36,210 bases of DNA from Candidatus Baltobacteraceae bacterium (GTDB lineage: Bacteria; Vulcanimicrobiota; Vulcanimicrobiia; Vulcanimicrobiales; Vulcanimicrobiaceae). The translations under genes and the position numbers were made by a program. The DNA lies in contig DATBTN010000054.1 of the NCBI GenBank assembly GCA_036559195.1, forward strand, positions 1 to 36,210, written 5' to 3'. The stretch's first letter is position 1, and each line of letters begins with the position of its first letter. Shown in pieces: positions 3,160 to 29,923 of this stretch. Below the pieces are notes generated by a model. It did no database searches. It was not told where the DNA came from and was given only the letters and a program-made list of their open reading frames with translations.

Positions 3160-3185
3160 GACCGCGAACGTTCCGGAAACCAGGA

Positions 3186-3201
3186 AGCCGCGCCTGCGGC
3201 T
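3186..3201. promoter_or_regulatory. Short inverted repeat in the btuF-btuB divergent region
   Basis: AGCCGC (3186-3191) and GCGGCT (3196-3201) form a perfect 6-bp inverted repeat with a 4-base gap, between the btuF start and the riboswitch. It could be an operator or an RNA stem at the 5' end of the btuB leader. I saw no convincing promoter hexamers in 3160-3215, so its role is open. Confidence 0.3.
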
Positions 3202-3214
3202 GCGTAAGCATGCG

Positions 3215-3366
3215 GTTCGCGTTTGCGCGAGGGAAGCCGGTACGATGCCGGCACGGTCGCGCCACTGTATGCGGGGAGCCGCTCGACGTCACTGGACAAC
3301 GGTTGTCCGGGAAGGCCCGAGCATCGAGGCTACGATCCGCGAGTCAGGATACCACTCGCAAACGCT
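3215..3366 (+). promoter_or_regulatory. Cobalamin (adenosylcobalamin) riboswitch aptamer
   Basis: The leader carries the conserved cobalamin riboswitch blocks in order: GGGAAGCCGGT (from 3230), ATGCCGGCACGGTCGC, GCCACTGTATGCGGGGAGCC (B12-box region, about 3261-3280), GGGAAGG (3309-3315) and GAGTCAGGATACCAC (3341-3355). The closing strand CTCGCAAACG (about 3355-3364) pairs with CGTTTGCGCGAG near 3220-3231. By established knowledge this RNA binds cobalamin and turns the downstream gene off. It lies directly before btuB, the expected target. The outer boundaries are approximate. Confidence 0.93.
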
Positions 3367-3371
3367 GCTCT

Positions 3372-3396
3372 AACCACCTCGCGAAAAAGGAAGGTT
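3372..3396 (+). promoter_or_regulatory. Candidate Shine-Dalgarno-masking hairpin (expression platform) of btuB
   Basis: AACC (3372-3375) can pair with GGTT (3393-3396), and CCT (3377-3379) with AGG (3388-3390), around the loop CGCGAAAA. The paired right arm holds the whole ribosome binding site AGGAAGG (3388-3394), which sits 6 bases before the GTG at 3401. No terminator with a T-run is seen between aptamer and gene, so control of translation is the likely mode. The pairing is read from the sequence; its use as the switch is inference. Confidence 0.5.
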
Positions 3397-3400
3397 TGCA

Positions 3401-5326
3401 GTGATCCCTCGCTTTCATGCGCGTGCGCTTTGCGCCGCGCTCTTCATCATCGCCGGCAGCGCCGGCGTCGCCGCAGCACGAGAAACGCCCGCGCCCTCGC
3501 CGTCCCCAAGCGCGCCTCCGGAGATCGCGCACGTCGTGACCAGCGATCGTTCGGACGAGTCGATCGACCGGGTGGCGCGGACCACGTTCGTCATCACCAA
3601 AGAAGAGATCGTCCGGCACGGGTACCGCAGCATCGCGGACGCAATCGCCACGTTACCGGGCGTCAATCTCGTACGCTACGGCACGACCGGTTCGGCCGCA
3701 AGTTTCGGCATTCGCGGAAGCTCGACGTCGCAGGTGCTGGTACTGGTCAACGGTCTCCCGGCTGCCGGCTCGCAGATCAACAATCTCGATCTCAATTCCA
3801 TTCCGACCACCGGCGTCGAACGTATCGAAGTCGTCGAAGGCGGCGGCTCGACGCTCTACGGCGCGGACTCCGTCGGCGGAGTTATCAACGTGATCGCAAC
3901 GCCGCTGGCCGGCAAAGCGATCCTCGACGCGTTCGCCGGATCCTTCGGAACGCGCGGAGCGAGCCTCGAAACGCGTAACTTCTCCTTCTCGCGAACGATC
4001 GCGCGCAACGATTTCGGCTTGCCGGGCAATGGCGAGCGTCCCAACTCCGATAGCGCGCAGACGACGGCGCGCGTTGCATTCGACCGTCACTTCGGGCGTA
4101 TCCGCGCCGCCTTCGACGCAAGCGTGAGCGATCATCACCTCGGCGTACCGGGGCCCGACGGGTTTCTCTCGGCCACGAGCCGCGAAAACGACGTCGATAC
4201 CGGCGCGCATCTCGCATTCGCGCGTACGGGCGCTCGCGCAACGACGACGCTCGATCTCGGCGGCACGCATCAATCGTTCGTCTACACGTGCGACACCCCG
4301 GTCGATTCGAGCTGCCCCAACTATCCCTTTACGGCCGGCGCGCCAATTCCGCCGCCCTACGCGCAGCTCCTAACCGAAGGACGCGTGGAGGCGAACTTCC
4401 GTAACGTACTCTCGAGCGACCGCACGCGCACCGTCTACGGCATCGACCTCTCGCGCGGCGTGGCGCGCGTGGACGACGGCAGCTCCCCGCTGCAAGTACA
4501 CGGATTCGCGCGCACCGCAATCTACGTGCAGCAAAATTGGCTCGCACGCACCGGGTCGCGTTTTTACGCCGGCGTTCGGGCCGAGCGCGACGGCGCGCAG
4601 GGCGGAGCGTTCTCACCGTCGATCGGCGGCATCCTGCGCCTTTCGCCGCAGCTCTCGCTCAAGGCCAACGCCGCGACGGCGTTTCGCGCGCCGAACGCAA
4701 GCGATCTCTACTATCCGGGGTTCAGTAACCCGAATCTCCAAGTCGAGCGCACGCGCGTCGCCGACGTTTCGCTCGTCGATCGCGGCCTGCTCGGCGGCGC
4801 CACGCTGACGTGGTTTACCACTACCGGACGAAATCTGATCGTCCTCGATCAAACCTACACGCCGCAGAACGTCGGTCACGCCGCAATCGCGGGCCTGACG
4901 TTCGCAATTCGAACCGTACCCATCCGCGGCTATTACGCGAAACTCAACCTCACGAATCTCTATCGCGAACGAGATCTCGATAGCGATCCGGCGATCGACA
5001 TCTACTCGGGCAAACGCTTGCCCAATCGAGGGCCGGTCCTCGCCGCCAATCTCGAACTCGGCTTTTTGGGCCGTCCCGCCTCCGCGATCGAGAGCGCGGC
5101 AATCACGATGCGCACGGCCGGCGCACGCGGGCCGGTCGATTCGAGACTGCCGCTCTTCGACCAGCCGGCGACGTACTCGAATCTCGGCGCGTTCGTGCGA
5201 TTTCGGCTCGACCGCGATGCGCTCTTAACGCTGCGCGCGTCGAATCTCGGGAACGAGCGGTACGCCGAGATCGGCGGCTATCCGATGCCGGGCCGGAGCT
5301 TCGTCGTGGAGCTCTCGACCCGTTAA
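3401..5326 (+). CDS. btuB: TonB-dependent outer-membrane receptor, vitamin B12 type (BtuB)
   Basis: The 641-residue protein has a signal peptide (about 1-25, ending GVAAA) and a periplasmic linker rich in Pro/Ser. A plug domain follows (about 58-170, with ITKEEIVRHGYRSIADAIATL and VERIEVVEGGGSTLYGADS), then a beta barrel to the C-terminus. E. coli BtuB is 614 residues. It takes up its ligand across the outer membrane with energy from TonB-ExbBD, none of which are in this window. Cobalamin as ligand follows from the riboswitch directly upstream and from btuC and btuD directly downstream. The start is a GTG with AGGAAGG 6 bases upstream. The last residue is Arg rather than the usual aromatic one of barrel proteins. 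Confidence 0.93.
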   Translation: MIPRFHARALCAALFIIAGSAGVAAARETPAPSPSPSAPPEIAHVVTSDRSDESIDRVARTTFVITKEEIVRHGYRSIADAIATLPGVNLVRYGTTGSAASFGIRGSSTSQVLVLVNGLPAAGSQINNLDLNSIPTTGVERIEVVEGGGSTLYGADSVGGVINVIATPLAGKAILDAFAGSFGTRGASLETRNFSFSRTIARNDFGLPGNGERPNSDSAQTTARVAFDRHFGRIRAAFDASVSDHHLGVPGPDGFLSATSRENDVDTGAHLAFARTGARATTTLDLGGTHQSFVYTCDTPVDSSCPNYPFTAGAPIPPPYAQLLTEGRVEANFRNVLSSDRTRTVYGIDLSRGVARVDDGSSPLQVHGFARTAIYVQQNWLARTGSRFYAGVRAERDGAQGGAFSPSIGGILRLSPQLSLKANAATAFRAPNASDLYYPGFSNPNLQVERTRVADVSLVDRGLLGGATLTWFTTTGRNLIVLDQTYTPQNVGHAAIAGLTFAIRTVPIRGYYAKLNLTNLYRERDLDSDPAIDIYSGKRLPNRGPVLAANLELGFLGRPASAIESAAITMRTAGARGPVDSRLPLFDQPATYSNLGAFVRFRLDRDALLTLRASNLGNERYAEIGGYPMPGRSFVVELSTR

Positions 5327-13426: not shown

Positions 13427-14650
13427 ATGTGGGGAGTACGCCGGGCTGCGACGAAGCATTCGGCGTGCACGGCGAAGGAGGCAATTCCCACGTCTGACCG
13501 TTTCACCCTGGGCCCCGCGACGCTTGCGATCGGCGATGGGTCATCTACCTACGGTCGCCTGGTCGTTGCGAACGGTCGAATCAGCGAGGTTCTTCCCGCC
13601 GACGGTCCGAGCGACTTTTATCTCCCCGCCGGTACGACGATCGCCCCGGGACTCATCGAGCTCCACACGCACGGTGCGGGTGAGTTTCTATTCAATCGCG
13701 ATCAAGGATACGCGGTGCCGGTTGCGGCGGTCGAATACGCGCGCCAGGGCGCCACGGCATTCGTCGCCTGCATTATGACGGCTCCTTGGGAATCGATGCT
13801 GCACGCTGCCGGCGAAGTCGTCGAAGCGGCGCATCAGCTCGAAGAGGACGAGCCGCGCGGAGCGCGTTGCTTGGGCATTCATTTTGAAGGGCCGTTCCTC
13901 AATCCGAAATTTCGACGCGTCCATCGCGCCGAGTGGATCATTCCCGCATCGGCAGAGCGCGCCCGAGCGATGGTCGATGCGTGTAAAGGCGCGTGTCTGA
14001 TGGTAACGCTCGCGCCCGAGATCGACGGCGCCGGTGAAGCCGCGCGCGTCTTTCTCGAACACGGCTGCGTTTGCTCGGCGGGACATACGGGCGCGCGGTA
14101 TCGCGAAGGTATGCTGGCGATCGGCATGGGCTATCGTTCGCTCACGCACGCGTTCAACGCGATGCTGCCGCTCGATCACCGCGAACCGTCGATTCTCGCG
14201 GCCTTCATTCAAGATACGCGCACGATGGTGCAGCTGATCTGCGACGGTCATCACGTGGCGCCGGTCATGGTCGATATTCTGCACCGCACGATCGGCGACC
14301 GGCTGATCCTCGCAACCGATCTAATGCCGCCGGCCGGTCCGGGCTATCGCGTCGAAGGCGGCGTGATGCGCTCCGAAGACGGCACGATTGCCGGCAGCGC
14401 CGTCAAGATGGATCAATCGCTGCGCAACTACATGACGTACACGGAGATTTCGTTTGCCAAGGCGATCGCGGCCGTGACGCACGCGCCCTCGAAACTTCTC
14501 GGTTACGAGAGCGACCTGGGCCGAATCGCGAAGGGCTTACGCGCCGATCTCTCGTTCTGGAACGACGATTATCACGTCATCGGCACGATGGTCGGCGGAA
14601 CGATGGTCCACGGCGACTGCGTCTCCCCTGTGGCCGCTGCAGCTTCATAG
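13427..14650 (+). CDS. nagA: N-acetylglucosamine-6-phosphate deacetylase
   Basis: NagA removes acetate from GlcNAc-6-phosphate in cell-wall sugar recycling. The 407-codon frame shows the amidohydrolase fold: ELHTHG (metal-binding HxH), LGIHFEGPFLNP (catalytic-site Glu/His), CSAGHTGA, SLTHAFNAM, CDGHHV and the active-site Asp in LATDLMPPAG, ending with GLRADLSFWNDD. The start is doubtful. The only canonical in-frame start is the ATG at 13427, which has no ribosome binding site. A perfect AAGGAGG sits at 13475-13481, with only ATT (13484) or ACG (13490) in frame just behind it. Similarity to the family would begin only after that point. Confidence 0.9.
   Translation: MWGVRRAATKHSACTAKEAIPTSDRFTLGPATLAIGDGSSTYGRLVVANGRISEVLPADGPSDFYLPAGTTIAPGLIELHTHGAGEFLFNRDQGYAVPVAAVEYARQGATAFVACIMTAPWESMLHAAGEVVEAAHQLEEDEPRGARCLGIHFEGPFLNPKFRRVHRAEWIIPASAERARAMVDACKGACLMVTLAPEIDGAGEAARVFLEHGCVCSAGHTGARYREGMLAIGMGYRSLTHAFNAMLPLDHREPSILAAFIQDTRTMVQLICDGHHVAPVMVDILHRTIGDRLILATDLMPPAGPGYRVEGGVMRSEDGTIAGSAVKMDQSLRNYMTYTEISFAKAIAAVTHAPSKLLGYESDLGRIAKGLRADLSFWNDDYHVIGTMVGGTMVHGDCVSPVAAAAS
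13475..13481 (+). promoter_or_regulatory. Strong ribosome binding site inside the annotated nagA frame
   Basis: AAGGAGG is the best Shine-Dalgarno match in the area. No ATG, GTG or TTG in the nagA frame lies within reach behind it. An ACG codon in frame sits at the ideal distance (8 bases, 13490-13492) and an ATT at 2 bases. This implies a rare start codon, a base error or mutation at the start, or chance. Confidence 0.5.
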
Positions 14651-14665: not shown

Positions 14666-14812
14666 GCTTGCGAGGGGGACGAGTGCGTTGCTGCGGGACG
14701 CCCGCTTTTTCGCATCGTGCGAAAAAGCTGCTCCCTTCGTCGTCGCTCCCGCCATCCTGGCTCCGCTCCTCCCTCAGAGGCCCGCCGCAACGCACTCGTC
14801 CCCCTCGCAAGC
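14666..14812. repeat. Long palindromic-ended element, copy B (147 bp), inverted relative to copy A
   Basis: Arms of 32 bases (14666-14697 and 14781-14812, starting GCTTGCGAGG) are inverted repeats with one mismatch. The 83-bp core between them is, read on the minus strand, about 90% identical to the core of copy A at 382-464. It keeps the same 11-bp hairpin (14704-14714 with 14718-14728). The arms share the outer GCTTGCG and the inner GCGGG with copy A but differ in between, with changes on one arm matched on the other. It sits in the convergent gap between nagA and livF. Confidence 0.85.
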
Positions 14813-14820
14813 AGCTCCCC

Positions 14821-14974
14821 TTGTCATCCTGAGCTTGTCGAAGGACGGGTTTGTCGAGGGGACGAGCTTGCTCGAGGGGCGTGCACTTTGTCGTCCTTCG
14901 ACAGGCTCAGGATGACAAGGGGGCGAGTGAGAAAAACTTGAGCCCCTTTGTCATCCTGAGTTTGTCGAAGGACG
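14821..14974. repeat. Cluster 2 of the short intergenic repeat family
   Basis: Three ~27-bp units with the core CATCCTGAGCNTGTCGAAG are seen: 14821-14847 forward, 14892-14918 inverted and 14948-14974 forward. The forward and inverted neighbours could fold into hairpins. Together with the palindromic element just left of it, this fills the gene-free stretch 14651-15046. In the remaining part (14975-15046) I see nothing recognisable. It lies between two convergent genes, where it would be transcribed from both sides. Confidence 0.85.
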
Positions 14975-15046
14975 GGGTTGTCGAACGGTCGGGGGACGGT
15001 ACTTGTAGACGGCACGATCCAAACGACACGAACGCGATCGGACGTT

Positions 15047-15756
<710 letters not shown>

Positions 15757-15760
<4 letters not shown>

Positions 15761-16529
15761 GACGCACTCTCGGCGGGCGCGCCCAGATAGGCCTCGACGA
15801 CGCGCGGATCGTTGCGCACTTGCGCCGGCGTTCCGCGCGCGATGCATTCGCCGTGATCGAGTACCGTGATCTCTTCGCAAACGCTCATGACCAGGCTCAT
15901 ATCGTGTTCGATCAGCAGCACGGTCACGCCGCGATCTCGAATCGCGCGAATCAAGCCGGCCAGATCGTGCTTCTCGCGCGGGTTCATGCCGGCCGCCGGC
16001 TCGTCGAGCAGTAACAGCTTCGGCGAGCTCCCGAGCGCGCGCGCGATCTCGAGCCGGCGCTGCGATCCGTACGGCAGATTGCGCGCGTACGATTCCCGAA
16101 CGCCGTCGAGGCCGACGAACTCCAGCAATTCGCGGGCGCGTTCGCTCGTCTTGCGTTCTTCGACGCGCTGCGAAGGCGTGTGCAGGAGCGAGTCCCAGAT
16201 GCGCGCGTGCATGCGCGCGTGCTCGCCGACCATCACGTTGTCGAGCGCGGACATGAACGAAAAGAGCCGGATGTTTTGGAACGTGCGAGCGATGCCCAGC
16301 GCCGCGATCTCATGCGTGGGCCGGCCGTCGATTCGCGAACCGTCGAACGAGACGCTGCCGGTCGTCGGCAGATAGATACCGGTGATCGTGTTGAAGACCG
16401 TCGATTTGCCGGCGCCGTTGGGTCCGATGATCGCCGCGATCGAGCCGCTTTCGACGGCGAACGACACGTCGTTCGCAGCAACGAGTTTTCCAAACGTCTT
16501 GCCGACGCCGCTTACGTCGAGCAGCGCGC

Positions 16530-27755: not shown

Positions 27756-29475
27756 ACACCCTTCTTCGATCGCGCTTCTATTGGGCGCGCTCTTGTTGCT
27801 GCCCGCCGCGCCCGCCGCAGCGCAGGGCAATGCCGCGCCCACGCTCGATGCCGCCCTCGCGCGAATCGGCGCGTACGCGCAGGCGGCCCTGGCCGAGCAA
27901 GGCGCGCCGGGGATGGCTCTCGCGATCACCGACAAGACGCACACGCTAAAAATCTTCACGCTCGGCTACGCGAATGTCGCGTCGCAGGCGCCGGTTACGG
28001 AAGCGACGCGTTTTGGAATCGGATCGCTCACCAAATCGATGACGGCCACCGCTTTGATGGAACTGCGCGACGCCGGCCGGTTCGATCCGCACGCGCCCGT
28101 AACGCACTATCTGCCGTGGTTTCGCATTCACACGGCGTATCGCCCCATCACGCCGCACGATCTGTTAACGCATACGAGCGGTATGCCCGACGGCGGCCTT
28201 TCGACGGGCATCGCGTCGGTCTATTCGATGCGCGATTGGTACACCGGATACGCGCCGGGAACGCACTGGTCGTACTCGAACGTCGGATACGACACGCTCG
28301 GTGAGATTTTGCAATCGCTCGACGCCGCCGACTATCCGGCAATCGTGCAGCGCCGCATCTTCGCGCCGCTGGGAATGACCGATACCACCGCGATTTGGTC
28401 GCCGCAAACGCTCGAGACCGCCGCGACCGGCTATCTCTATCGCGCCGACGACCGGCCCGCGCCGCAACAACCCGCCTTGATGGTCGCGCCCACGACCCAT
28501 TACATCGACCCGGCCGGTTCCGTTCTCTCGACGGGCGGCGACATGGCAAAATACATGCGCTACTTTCTAAACGACGGCCAGGGCCCGCAGGGACGCATCA
28601 TCTCCGACGCTAGTTGGAAGTTGATGACCACACCCGGCGTCACCGACGGCCACGAGCTCGGCGATGCGGCGCCGGGATTCTACCATCGCTACGGCTACGG
28701 ACTCGCGATTCAAACCGTCGCCGGCGACACCGTCGTCGGACACACCGGCGGCGTGCTCGATTTTACCGCCTGCATGCAGATGGATCTCACGCGCGGCTAC
28801 GGTGCGATCGCGATGACCAACCTCGCCTACGTGGGGCCGCGCCCGTGCCCGATCGTGTCGTACGCACTCAAAGTCTTGCGCGCCCAATCCGAAGGCAAGC
28901 CGCTGCCCGACATGCCGCAACCGCCCGATCCGCTAAAGGTAACGAAGCCGGCCGACTATGCAGGCACCTACCGCGCCGCCGACGGATCGGCGCTCGTCGT
29001 AGCGGTTAACGGCGACGACCTCACGCTGCAGTACGGCGAAAAGAGTGCGGCGCTCTATCCGCGCGGTACGAACAGTTTCTGGGTCGACAGCCCCGACTTC
29101 GCGCATTATTTGCTGCAATTTGGCCGGCAGAACGGCCGCGTCGTCGAAGCGTTCTACGGCCCGAAGTGGTACGTCTCAAATGCCTACACCGGAGCGAAAA
29201 CGTTTGCCTATCCAAGTGCGTGGAACGCGTATACCGGCGACTACGAATCGATCGACGCCAACGGGTACTACGGTTCGCTACACGTGTTCGTCCGCAAAGG
29301 CAAGCTGGTCAGCGACGACGGCACGCAACTCGTTCCGCTCGCCGCAGGTCTCTTCCGCATCGGAACCGATCCCTGGACGCCGGAACGAATCCGTTTCGAC
29401 GAGATCGTCAACGCCCACGCCCAACGAGCCCGCCTCCCCGGCAACGACCTCTACCGAACCCCCCTGTCATCCTGA
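27733..29475 (+). CDS. Secreted class C beta-lactamase-fold serine hydrolase
   Basis: The 580-residue protein has a signal peptide (about 1-31, ending APAAAQ) and a penicillin-binding/class C fold. The nucleophile motif is SLTK (98-101), the YxN motif YSN (181-183) and the KTG-like box HTGG in VVGHTGGVLDF. A ~200-residue beta-rich C-terminal part follows. Such proteins are mostly peptidases or esterases rather than true antibiotic-resistance enzymes, and the substrate is unknown. The ATG at 27733 has TTGGAGGA just before it and overlaps the exonuclease gene by 23 bases. The stop codon and last three residues (LSS) are encoded by a copy of the short intergenic repeat. Confidence 0.85.
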   Translation: MRNSRSSKHPSSIALLLGALLLLPAAPAAAQGNAAPTLDAALARIGAYAQAALAEQGAPGMALAITDKTHTLKIFTLGYANVASQAPVTEATRFGIGSLTKSMTATALMELRDAGRFDPHAPVTHYLPWFRIHTAYRPITPHDLLTHTSGMPDGGLSTGIASVYSMRDWYTGYAPGTHWSYSNVGYDTLGEILQSLDAADYPAIVQRRIFAPLGMTDTTAIWSPQTLETAATGYLYRADDRPAPQQPALMVAPTTHYIDPAGSVLSTGGDMAKYMRYFLNDGQGPQGRIISDASWKLMTTPGVTDGHELGDAAPGFYHRYGYGLAIQTVAGDTVVGHTGGVLDFTACMQMDLTRGYGAIAMTNLAYVGPRPCPIVSYALKVLRAQSEGKPLPDMPQPPDPLKVTKPADYAGTYRAADGSALVVAVNGDDLTLQYGEKSAALYPRGTNSFWVDSPDFAHYLLQFGRQNGRVVEAFYGPKWYVSNAYTGAKTFAYPSAWNAYTGDYESIDANGYYGSLHVFVRKGKLVSDDGTQLVPLAAGLFRIGTDPWTPERIRFDEIVNAHAQRARLPGNDLYRTPLSS

Positions 29476-29640
29476 GCTTGTCGAAGGACGGAGCCTGTCG
29501 AAGGACGTGGTTCGACAGGCTCACCATGACAAACGCACTCGTTGTCATCCTGAGCCCGTCGAAGGACGAAGCCCCCCACATGGTTCGACAGGCTCACCAT
29601 GACAAACACACTCGTTGTCATCCTGAGCCTGTCGAAGGAC
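29465..29640. repeat. Cluster 3 of the short intergenic repeat family
   Basis: Units with the core CATCCTGAGCNTGTCGAAG are seen at 29465-29490, 29542-29568 and 29615-29640 (forward). A partial forward unit lies at 29494-29507, and inverted, slightly different units (ending CACCATGACA) at 29511-29531 and 29584-29604. Forward and inverted units alternate, so each pair could form a hairpin. The cluster fills the convergent gap between the serine hydrolase and the Lrp-like gene. The first unit enters the hydrolase reading frame. Confidence 0.85.
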
Positions 29641-29644
29641 AGAG

Positions 29645-29923
29645 CTACTCCGTGCCGATGTCCCAGAGCATGCCGAGATCTTTTTTCGCGAAGGAGCGAA
29701 ACGAGATGAGCGTCTCGGTATCGACGATGCCTTCGAGGGCGGCGACGTGTTCGGTCACCAGATCGTTGAGCTGCTCGTGCTCTTTTACACGCACGATCGC
29801 GACCAGGTCGAACGGGCCGGCGACGCTGTAGACCTCGGCGATGCCTTCGATCGCCAGCAAATCGTCGGCGATCGTCTTGAGCCGCGGGCGCTCGACGTTG
29901 AGCAAAATGAAAGCGGTAACCAT
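29645..29923 (-). CDS. Stand-alone Lrp/AsnC ligand-binding (RAM) domain protein
   Basis: The 92-residue protein matches the effector-binding half of Lrp/AsnC regulators: MVTAFILLNVE, the IEGIAEVYSVAGPFDLVAIV strand-helix-strand core, and a second repeat VAALEGIVDTETLISF. It has no DNA-binding helix-turn-helix, so it probably binds an amino acid or a partner regulator instead of DNA. The gene is divergent from the DNA ligase with only 45 bases between starts. A slightly longer start at a TTG (29932) is possible. The target is unknown. Confidence 0.82.
   Translation of the reverse strand: MVTAFILLNVERPRLKTIADDLLAIEGIAEVYSVAGPFDLVAIVRVKEHEQLNDLVTEHVAALEGIVDTETLISFRSFAKKDLGMLWDIGTE

Follow-up and report, generated by a model that had tools for sequence, protein, structure and literature searches.

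How can the two arms of a long hairpin differ from one copy to the next and still remain complementary to each other? This question is raised by a 147-bp element, here called copy B, and by a second copy, copy A, lying in opposite orientation in the same window (the whole 36,210-nt stretch of Candidatus Baltobacteraceae DNA that was analysed). A sequence-only reading of the locus had described a conserved core between arms that diverge in a mirrored fashion, and had proposed that either selection on a hairpin or repair using the other arm as template was responsible. The mirrored-arm observation is real and was confirmed as far beyond chance, and the family to which the two copies belong bears on both causes.

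The two copies and their family

The features of copies A and B, and of the genes beside copy B, are listed below; R1 is a covariance model of the 89-nt core, which was used for the genome search.

14666-14812, folded strand minus: copy B, whole element, 147 bp with arms of 32 nt
14666-14697: copy B, left arm (3' arm on the folded strand), 31/32 complementary to 14781-14812, its final 3 nt being the GGG that closes the core
14781-14812: copy B, right arm (5' arm on the folded strand), pairing with 14666-14697
14695-14783, minus: copy B, conserved 89-nt core, a three-way junction (model R1, 100.9 bits)
14746-14764, minus: copy B, P2 tip GGAGCCAGGATGGCGGGAG (from alignment and sequence)
14704-14728, minus: copy B, P3 hairpin GCTTTTTCGCACGATGCGAAAAAGC, the stem of which covaries across genomes
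349-497, folded strand plus: copy A (L006), whole element, 149 bp, orientation opposite to copy B
349-381: copy A, 5' arm on the folded strand, 33/33 complementary to 465-497
465-497: copy A, 3' arm on the folded strand, pairing with 349-381
379-467, plus: copy A, core (model R1, 102.2 bits)
13427-14650, plus: amidohydrolase gene, 5' of copy B in the window, its stop codon 15 nt from copy B
15047-15880, minus: ABC-transporter ATPase gene, convergent, on the far side of copy B

The two cores differ at 8 of 89 nt (91% identity, counted on the alignment), in agreement with the approximately 90% given by the sequence-only reading, which was also correct in finding a single mismatch between the arms of copy B. 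Its description of the arms needs a qualification: the difference between GGGGACGAGTGCG and GGGGACGACGTTG is real and mirrored, but is limited to the inner half, the outer halves of the arms being alike (GCTTGCGnGGGGGACGA). The difference in arm length between the copies (5 against 6 G) is likewise mirrored. The core of copy A is identical to that of another copy, L009, the arms of which are unrelated to those of copy A. Folding of copy B, compared with dinucleotide shuffles, gave z values of -8.3 for the plus strand and -8.6 for the minus strand, and the amidohydrolase gene is antisense to the folded strand, an arrangement typical of the family. The window also contains a separate repeat family, TGTCATCCTGAGCYTGTCGAAGGAC, at 101-300, 14817-14991 and 29459-29658, with direct and inverted copies that often adjoin the hairpin element, and a cobalamin riboswitch (RF00174, 75 bits) at 3180-3374, directly upstream of a gene for a TonB-dependent receptor (3401-5326).

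The source genome carries 13 copies of the core, two of them in the window, and of the 149 genomes of the phylum Candidatus Eremiobacterota searched with R1, 77 have the element. The order on the folded strand is 5' arm, GGG, P2 (tip GRAGCCAGGAUGGCGRGAG), AGYAGC, the P3 hairpin, GCGUCCC and 3' arm, and the three-way junction of the core is made up of the GGG/CCC closing stem, P2 with its GGA-loop tip, and P3. The P2 tip, with its GGA loop, A-U closing pair and purine-rich internal loop, is the best-conserved motif, and the loop of P3 is usually ACGA, with AGGA, AUGGA and AAGGA also occurring. P2 and P3 covary between genomes; the core reached a covariation score of 0.323 (0.088 when shuffled) and the whole element 0.797 (0.160 when shuffled, with none of 500 shuffles as high). 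At atpG-atpD in genus g36 (L216, L222, L242) there is a second core type, with a GC-rich P3 and an unchanged P2 motif, and in L216 the tip CGCCATCC is present twice.

Outside the phylum, a Krumholzibacteriia genome carries relatives with clearly paired arms (L271: 53/64 and 39/46), and weaker matches, some with paired arms, occur in MAGs of Planctomycetota and Deltaproteobacteria, for which binning errors are possible. The P2 tip motif is also found in other phyla, and once in an IMG/VR contig classed as viral (L388, 2279-2297). In Rfam 15 nothing scored above the gathering score, the only matches, outside-phylum relatives included, being sub-threshold ones to long, miRNA-like hairpins, and the plasmid and phage collections searched gave no match to the element. 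The family is new to these libraries, while its kind, the structured extragenic palindromic repeat, is already known.

Copies are found in a preferred genomic position. The 3'-side gene was convergent in 90 of the 113 copies with a predicted neighbour, and its stop codon lay most often 41-47 nt from the core (neighbour genes were predicted by a simple open-frame rule, and gene names were assigned by reading translations). Between convergent genes there are paired copies that face away from each other (for example L134, L155, L177, L173). Copies often form such back-to-back pairs, separated by about 200-400 bp and both turning the 3' side toward a gene end, as at these four loci and at L271 and L309. 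By flank comparison, the element at the L005 locus is also present in eleven further genomes; the sigma factor-alaS locus is occupied in the source genome and in genus g36, and the atpG-atpD locus in several genera, while the infB/nrnA region is another housekeeping-gene 3'-end site. Several relatives are without the element at these orthologous loci, and it has therefore been gained and lost. Empty sites occur in close relatives (L243, L244-L247), and their comparison, across intergenic flanks that are too diverged, gave no clean target duplication. Two copies at different loci of one genome, L161 and L166, have a 28-nt arm in common but not the sequence beyond it, and arms can therefore travel with the core. 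At one site with flanks 93% identical, L171 and L175 have different arms and opposite core orientations. Neither the source genome nor the listed genomes of genus g36, all carrying the element, gave a match to the Y1 transposase (PF01797), and reverse transcriptase (RVT_1) is absent from the source genome and most carriers; RAYT/Y1 transposase and reverse transcriptase were rejected as movers, as their genes do not track the element.

Pairing, strand bias and probable copying between arms

The arms pair in 122 of 136 copies although their sequences differ almost completely between copies, so that copies with non-complementary arms, named by the sequence-only reading as evidence against its view, are limited to 14. 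Among 135 copies picked irrespective of pairing, 81% of the 28 positions are paired between arms of the same copy; shuffling the 3' arms among copies lowers this to 43% (maximum 46%), and sliding the arms by 1-3 nt to 37-44%. In a gap-free alignment of 40 copies, mostly picked for full arms, 97.1% of arm cells were paired, against 46.6% when shuffled, and double changes were present at all 28 arm pairs; the arms of this set reached a covariation score of 1.226, compared with 0.232 after shuffling and no more than 0.214 after sliding. The ungapped arm length outside GGG/CCC, counted in the 104 copies with an arm of at least 15 nt, has an abrupt onset at 28-30 nt (43 copies) and a tail to 47 nt, and flank-to-flank identity is down to background by about 45 nt. 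One copy with 105-bp arms at a contig start (L138) was left out as a probable assembly artefact. Identity between copies of the source genome was 0.87 for the core and 0.60 for the arms, with 0.51 for random sequence; the ends are the least conserved part, and the earlier view that this is not a normal inverted-repeat transposon holds.

At arm position 12 from the core a G.U pair is preferred (20/104 copies, without any other mismatch type), and positions 12-23 carry a weak YRYRCCCnCCC pattern, which together suggest that the arm helix may be contacted by something. One locus of the source genome, L047 (C12:11206-11258), has family-type arms and a short tip with the first bases of the core only. 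Because its arms are without the core, insertion of the element into ready-made hairpins was considered; this was rejected, as core sequence is still present at the tip, and L047 is likely to be a core-deletion product.

The mismatches that remain in the arms are unevenly distributed. On the folded strand there are 156 G.U, 70 A.G, 34 A.C and 11 C.T, an excess of G.U over A.C (p = 7e-20, 66 copies against 10) and of A.G over C.T (p = 1e-11). The G.U:A.C bias persists whether both neighbours are antisense (51:5) or sense (22:5) to the folded strand, peaks in the inner 20 bp, and tracks core orientation in all gene contexts that have sufficient counts; for copy B the favoured strand is the opposite of the window's plus strand, independent of the orientation of neighbouring genes. 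This shows that complementarity is maintained on one strand, on which G.U and A.G are tolerated and A.C and C.T are not. A mutational origin would need a strand-asymmetric spectrum that tracks the core and not transcription, and we consider selection on a single-stranded fold to be the better reading. Folding of single-stranded DNA would give the G.U bias just as folding of RNA would. No promoter-like enrichment was found 5' of the family copies.

Comparison of orthologous copies gives a second view of the arms. Where flanks are 98% identical, arm identity is 0.96; it drops to about 0.8 for flanks of 85% identity and is close to random for those of 75%, so the arms change about as fast as unconstrained sequence yet remain paired. 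The orthologs L161 and L163 have two mirrored indels in common, and the arms of L163 are paired at 46/46 positions. Double changes in orthologs are of the transversion type about as frequently as of the transition type, the raw counts of 76 and 37, respectively, being inflated by shifted register or indels in two pairs and by shared ancestry, and counts from ortholog pairs not being independent. At one locus (L131/L132) the arms were kept and the core is exactly inverted, and the two can be aligned again once the core is turned back computationally. At atpG-atpD the species differ in a synonymous codon beside the stop, and in each the far arm is the mirror image of that species' codon (GTAGAGTGA/TCACTCTAC, GTCGAGTGA/TCACTCGAC, GTTGAGTGA/TCACTCAAC); the far arm of L015 mirrors the last codons of a sigma-factor gene (Sigma70_r4 match to residue 258/262). 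In L166, an empty-site comparison (S2) suggests that the sequence beyond the arm is decayed, inverted native flank reaching back to the stop codon; it is absent in four relatives.

Template switching has been described both for inverted repeats, in which it homogenises arms and inverts spacers (PMC8604942), and for RNA stems and hairpins, which template-switch mutation creates and maintains (PMC8794818). Judged by their sequence, the mirrored changes, core inversion and mirrored gene ends are marks left by template switching between inverted repeats, and arm-to-arm copying appears supported by several independent traces of events not themselves observed. Each of the causes offered at the outset is supported by evidence of its own: selection on the hairpin by the preference for G.U over A.C and A.G over C.T, tracking core orientation, and repair from the other arm by mirrored indels and transversions, a core inverted while its arms were kept, and arms that extend into the neighbouring gene. 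Given both the strand bias and the copying marks, selection on pairing and arm-to-arm copying most likely act together.

Explanations for the paired arms

The explanation that we favour, and regard as probable when taken as a whole, is that these are extragenic structured hairpin repeats with strand-selected pairing plus template-switch copying. A long P1 helix (about 28-30 bp in addition to GGG/CCC), nearly free in sequence, holds the 89-nt core. After a mutation in one arm, template switching during DNA synthesis would copy one arm onto the other, so that the arm sequence drifts as a pair; it would also invert the core between the arms, and could carry the mirroring outward into the flank, as far as the stop codon of the neighbouring gene and beyond it. 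The folded strand presumably acts single-stranded, more likely as RNA than as single-stranded DNA, and may provide some benefit or means of spread, while the element would occasionally be mobile with its 28-nt arms, by an enzyme acting in trans, and would be retained at gene 3' ends. Against this explanation stand the lack of a promoter-like signal, the absence of a T-run after the element, and the wholesale arm replacement at L171/L175, which is not accounted for by template switching alone. A self-renewing mobile hairpin, which we regard as unlikely but worth keeping in mind, would consist of a heritable core that makes fixed-length arms by fold-back copying of local DNA at gene ends, on arrival or repeatedly, with the private, nearly perfect helix of each copy supporting a strand-specific function. 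If this were true, the P2 tip and paired arms in Krumholzibacteriia would mean an old class spanning phyla.

Template switching is a known process (PMC8604942, PMC8794818), and a dead DNA palindrome, kept symmetric solely by such switching or by quasi-palindrome correction and with no selection on its fold, would show the mirrored indels, transversions, core inversion and mirrored gene ends; it is nevertheless quite unlikely, being disfavoured by the strand asymmetry of G.U:A.C and A.G:C.T, the fixed minimum arm length, persistence at orthologous loci, and a core that is conserved between genera and phyla, its stems covarying and its loops kept. We give little credence to a classical structured RNA, in which independent compensatory arm mutations are selected without templated copying: it is consistent with the covariation and G.U bias, the A.G pairs near the junction and the preferred G.U at position 12, but it does not explain why indels are mirrored, why double changes are as frequently transversions as transitions, how the core came to be inverted between arms that were kept, why variants of gene-end codons are mirrored, or how identical cores come with unrelated arms.

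The strand-specific fold and missing promoter signal would also suit a folded single-stranded DNA element, used by a one-strand recombinase or transposase in an attC-like or REPIN-like mechanism to which RNA is irrelevant, as would the fixed side relative to the adjacent gene end (90/113 copies), the same-arm copies at different loci and the empty sites in close relatives. The absence of Y1 transposase genes from the source genome and from genus g36, both of which carry the element, the lack of a visible target duplication and the persistence of copies at orthologous loci across genera make this improbable. An ordinary MITE with terminal inverted repeats, or a bidirectional intrinsic terminator, is scarcely credible, even though a dispersed element of about 147 bp with inverted-repeat ends at gene 3' ends invites the comparison. 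In this family the ends are the poorest conserved part and arms are unrelated between copies, contrary to a MITE, while TTTT occurs within 25 nt after the 3' arm in only 3/104 copies, and a T-run on the other strand (AAAA before the 5' arm) in only 6/101 or 9/101, contrary to a terminator.

Significance and relation to known systems

What is unusual about the family is that the middle is constant and the ends, fixed in length, are free in sequence yet paired, together with its strand bias and visible template switching. Covariation is normally taken as proof of selection maintaining an RNA stem. Here, more than 100 natural replicates are available for separating strand selection from templated arm copying, since core inversion and mirrored indels or codons mark copying while the G.U bias marks selection, and they record how long hairpins arise and stay paired. 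The family is also a phylum-wide structured element, previously unrecorded, at the 3' ends of housekeeping genes (atpG-atpD, sigma factor-alaS, infB/nrnA region).

The P2 tip loop CAGGAUG, in copy B (14746-14764) and its relatives, appears to resemble the CsrA/RsmA binding motif, as in sRNAs of the CsrB/RsmZ type. CsrA is encoded in most element-bearing genomes, but its presence is uninformative because it is encoded in most genomes of the phylum, and unlike CsrB/RsmZ-type sRNAs the element has one conserved GGA loop only, long P1 arms and many dispersed copies.

REPINs and REP sequences, which are associated with RAYT transposases, have highly conserved ends and a variable middle (PMC3116915). 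The present family resembles REPINs in consisting of short, dispersed, extragenic palindromic hairpins, and compensatory hairpin changes have been reported in REPINs (PMC3116915), but here the middle is conserved and the ends are variable, and the source genome is without a Y1/RAYT gene. The selfish palindromes of organelles (Volvox, PMC2670323; double-hairpin elements), of about 50 nt with 3-5 nt loops, are similarly intergenic and hairpin-forming with short conserved loops, whereas this family is bacterial, its arm length is fixed and its core is a three-way junction of 89 nt. Published template-switch cases (PMC8794818, PMC8604942) likewise show multi-base changes that are mirrored, extended stems and an inverted loop or spacer; those were single events, in rRNA and yeast genes, whereas here such changes appear to have affected a whole family repeatedly, across an 89-nt spacer and arms of about 30 bp.
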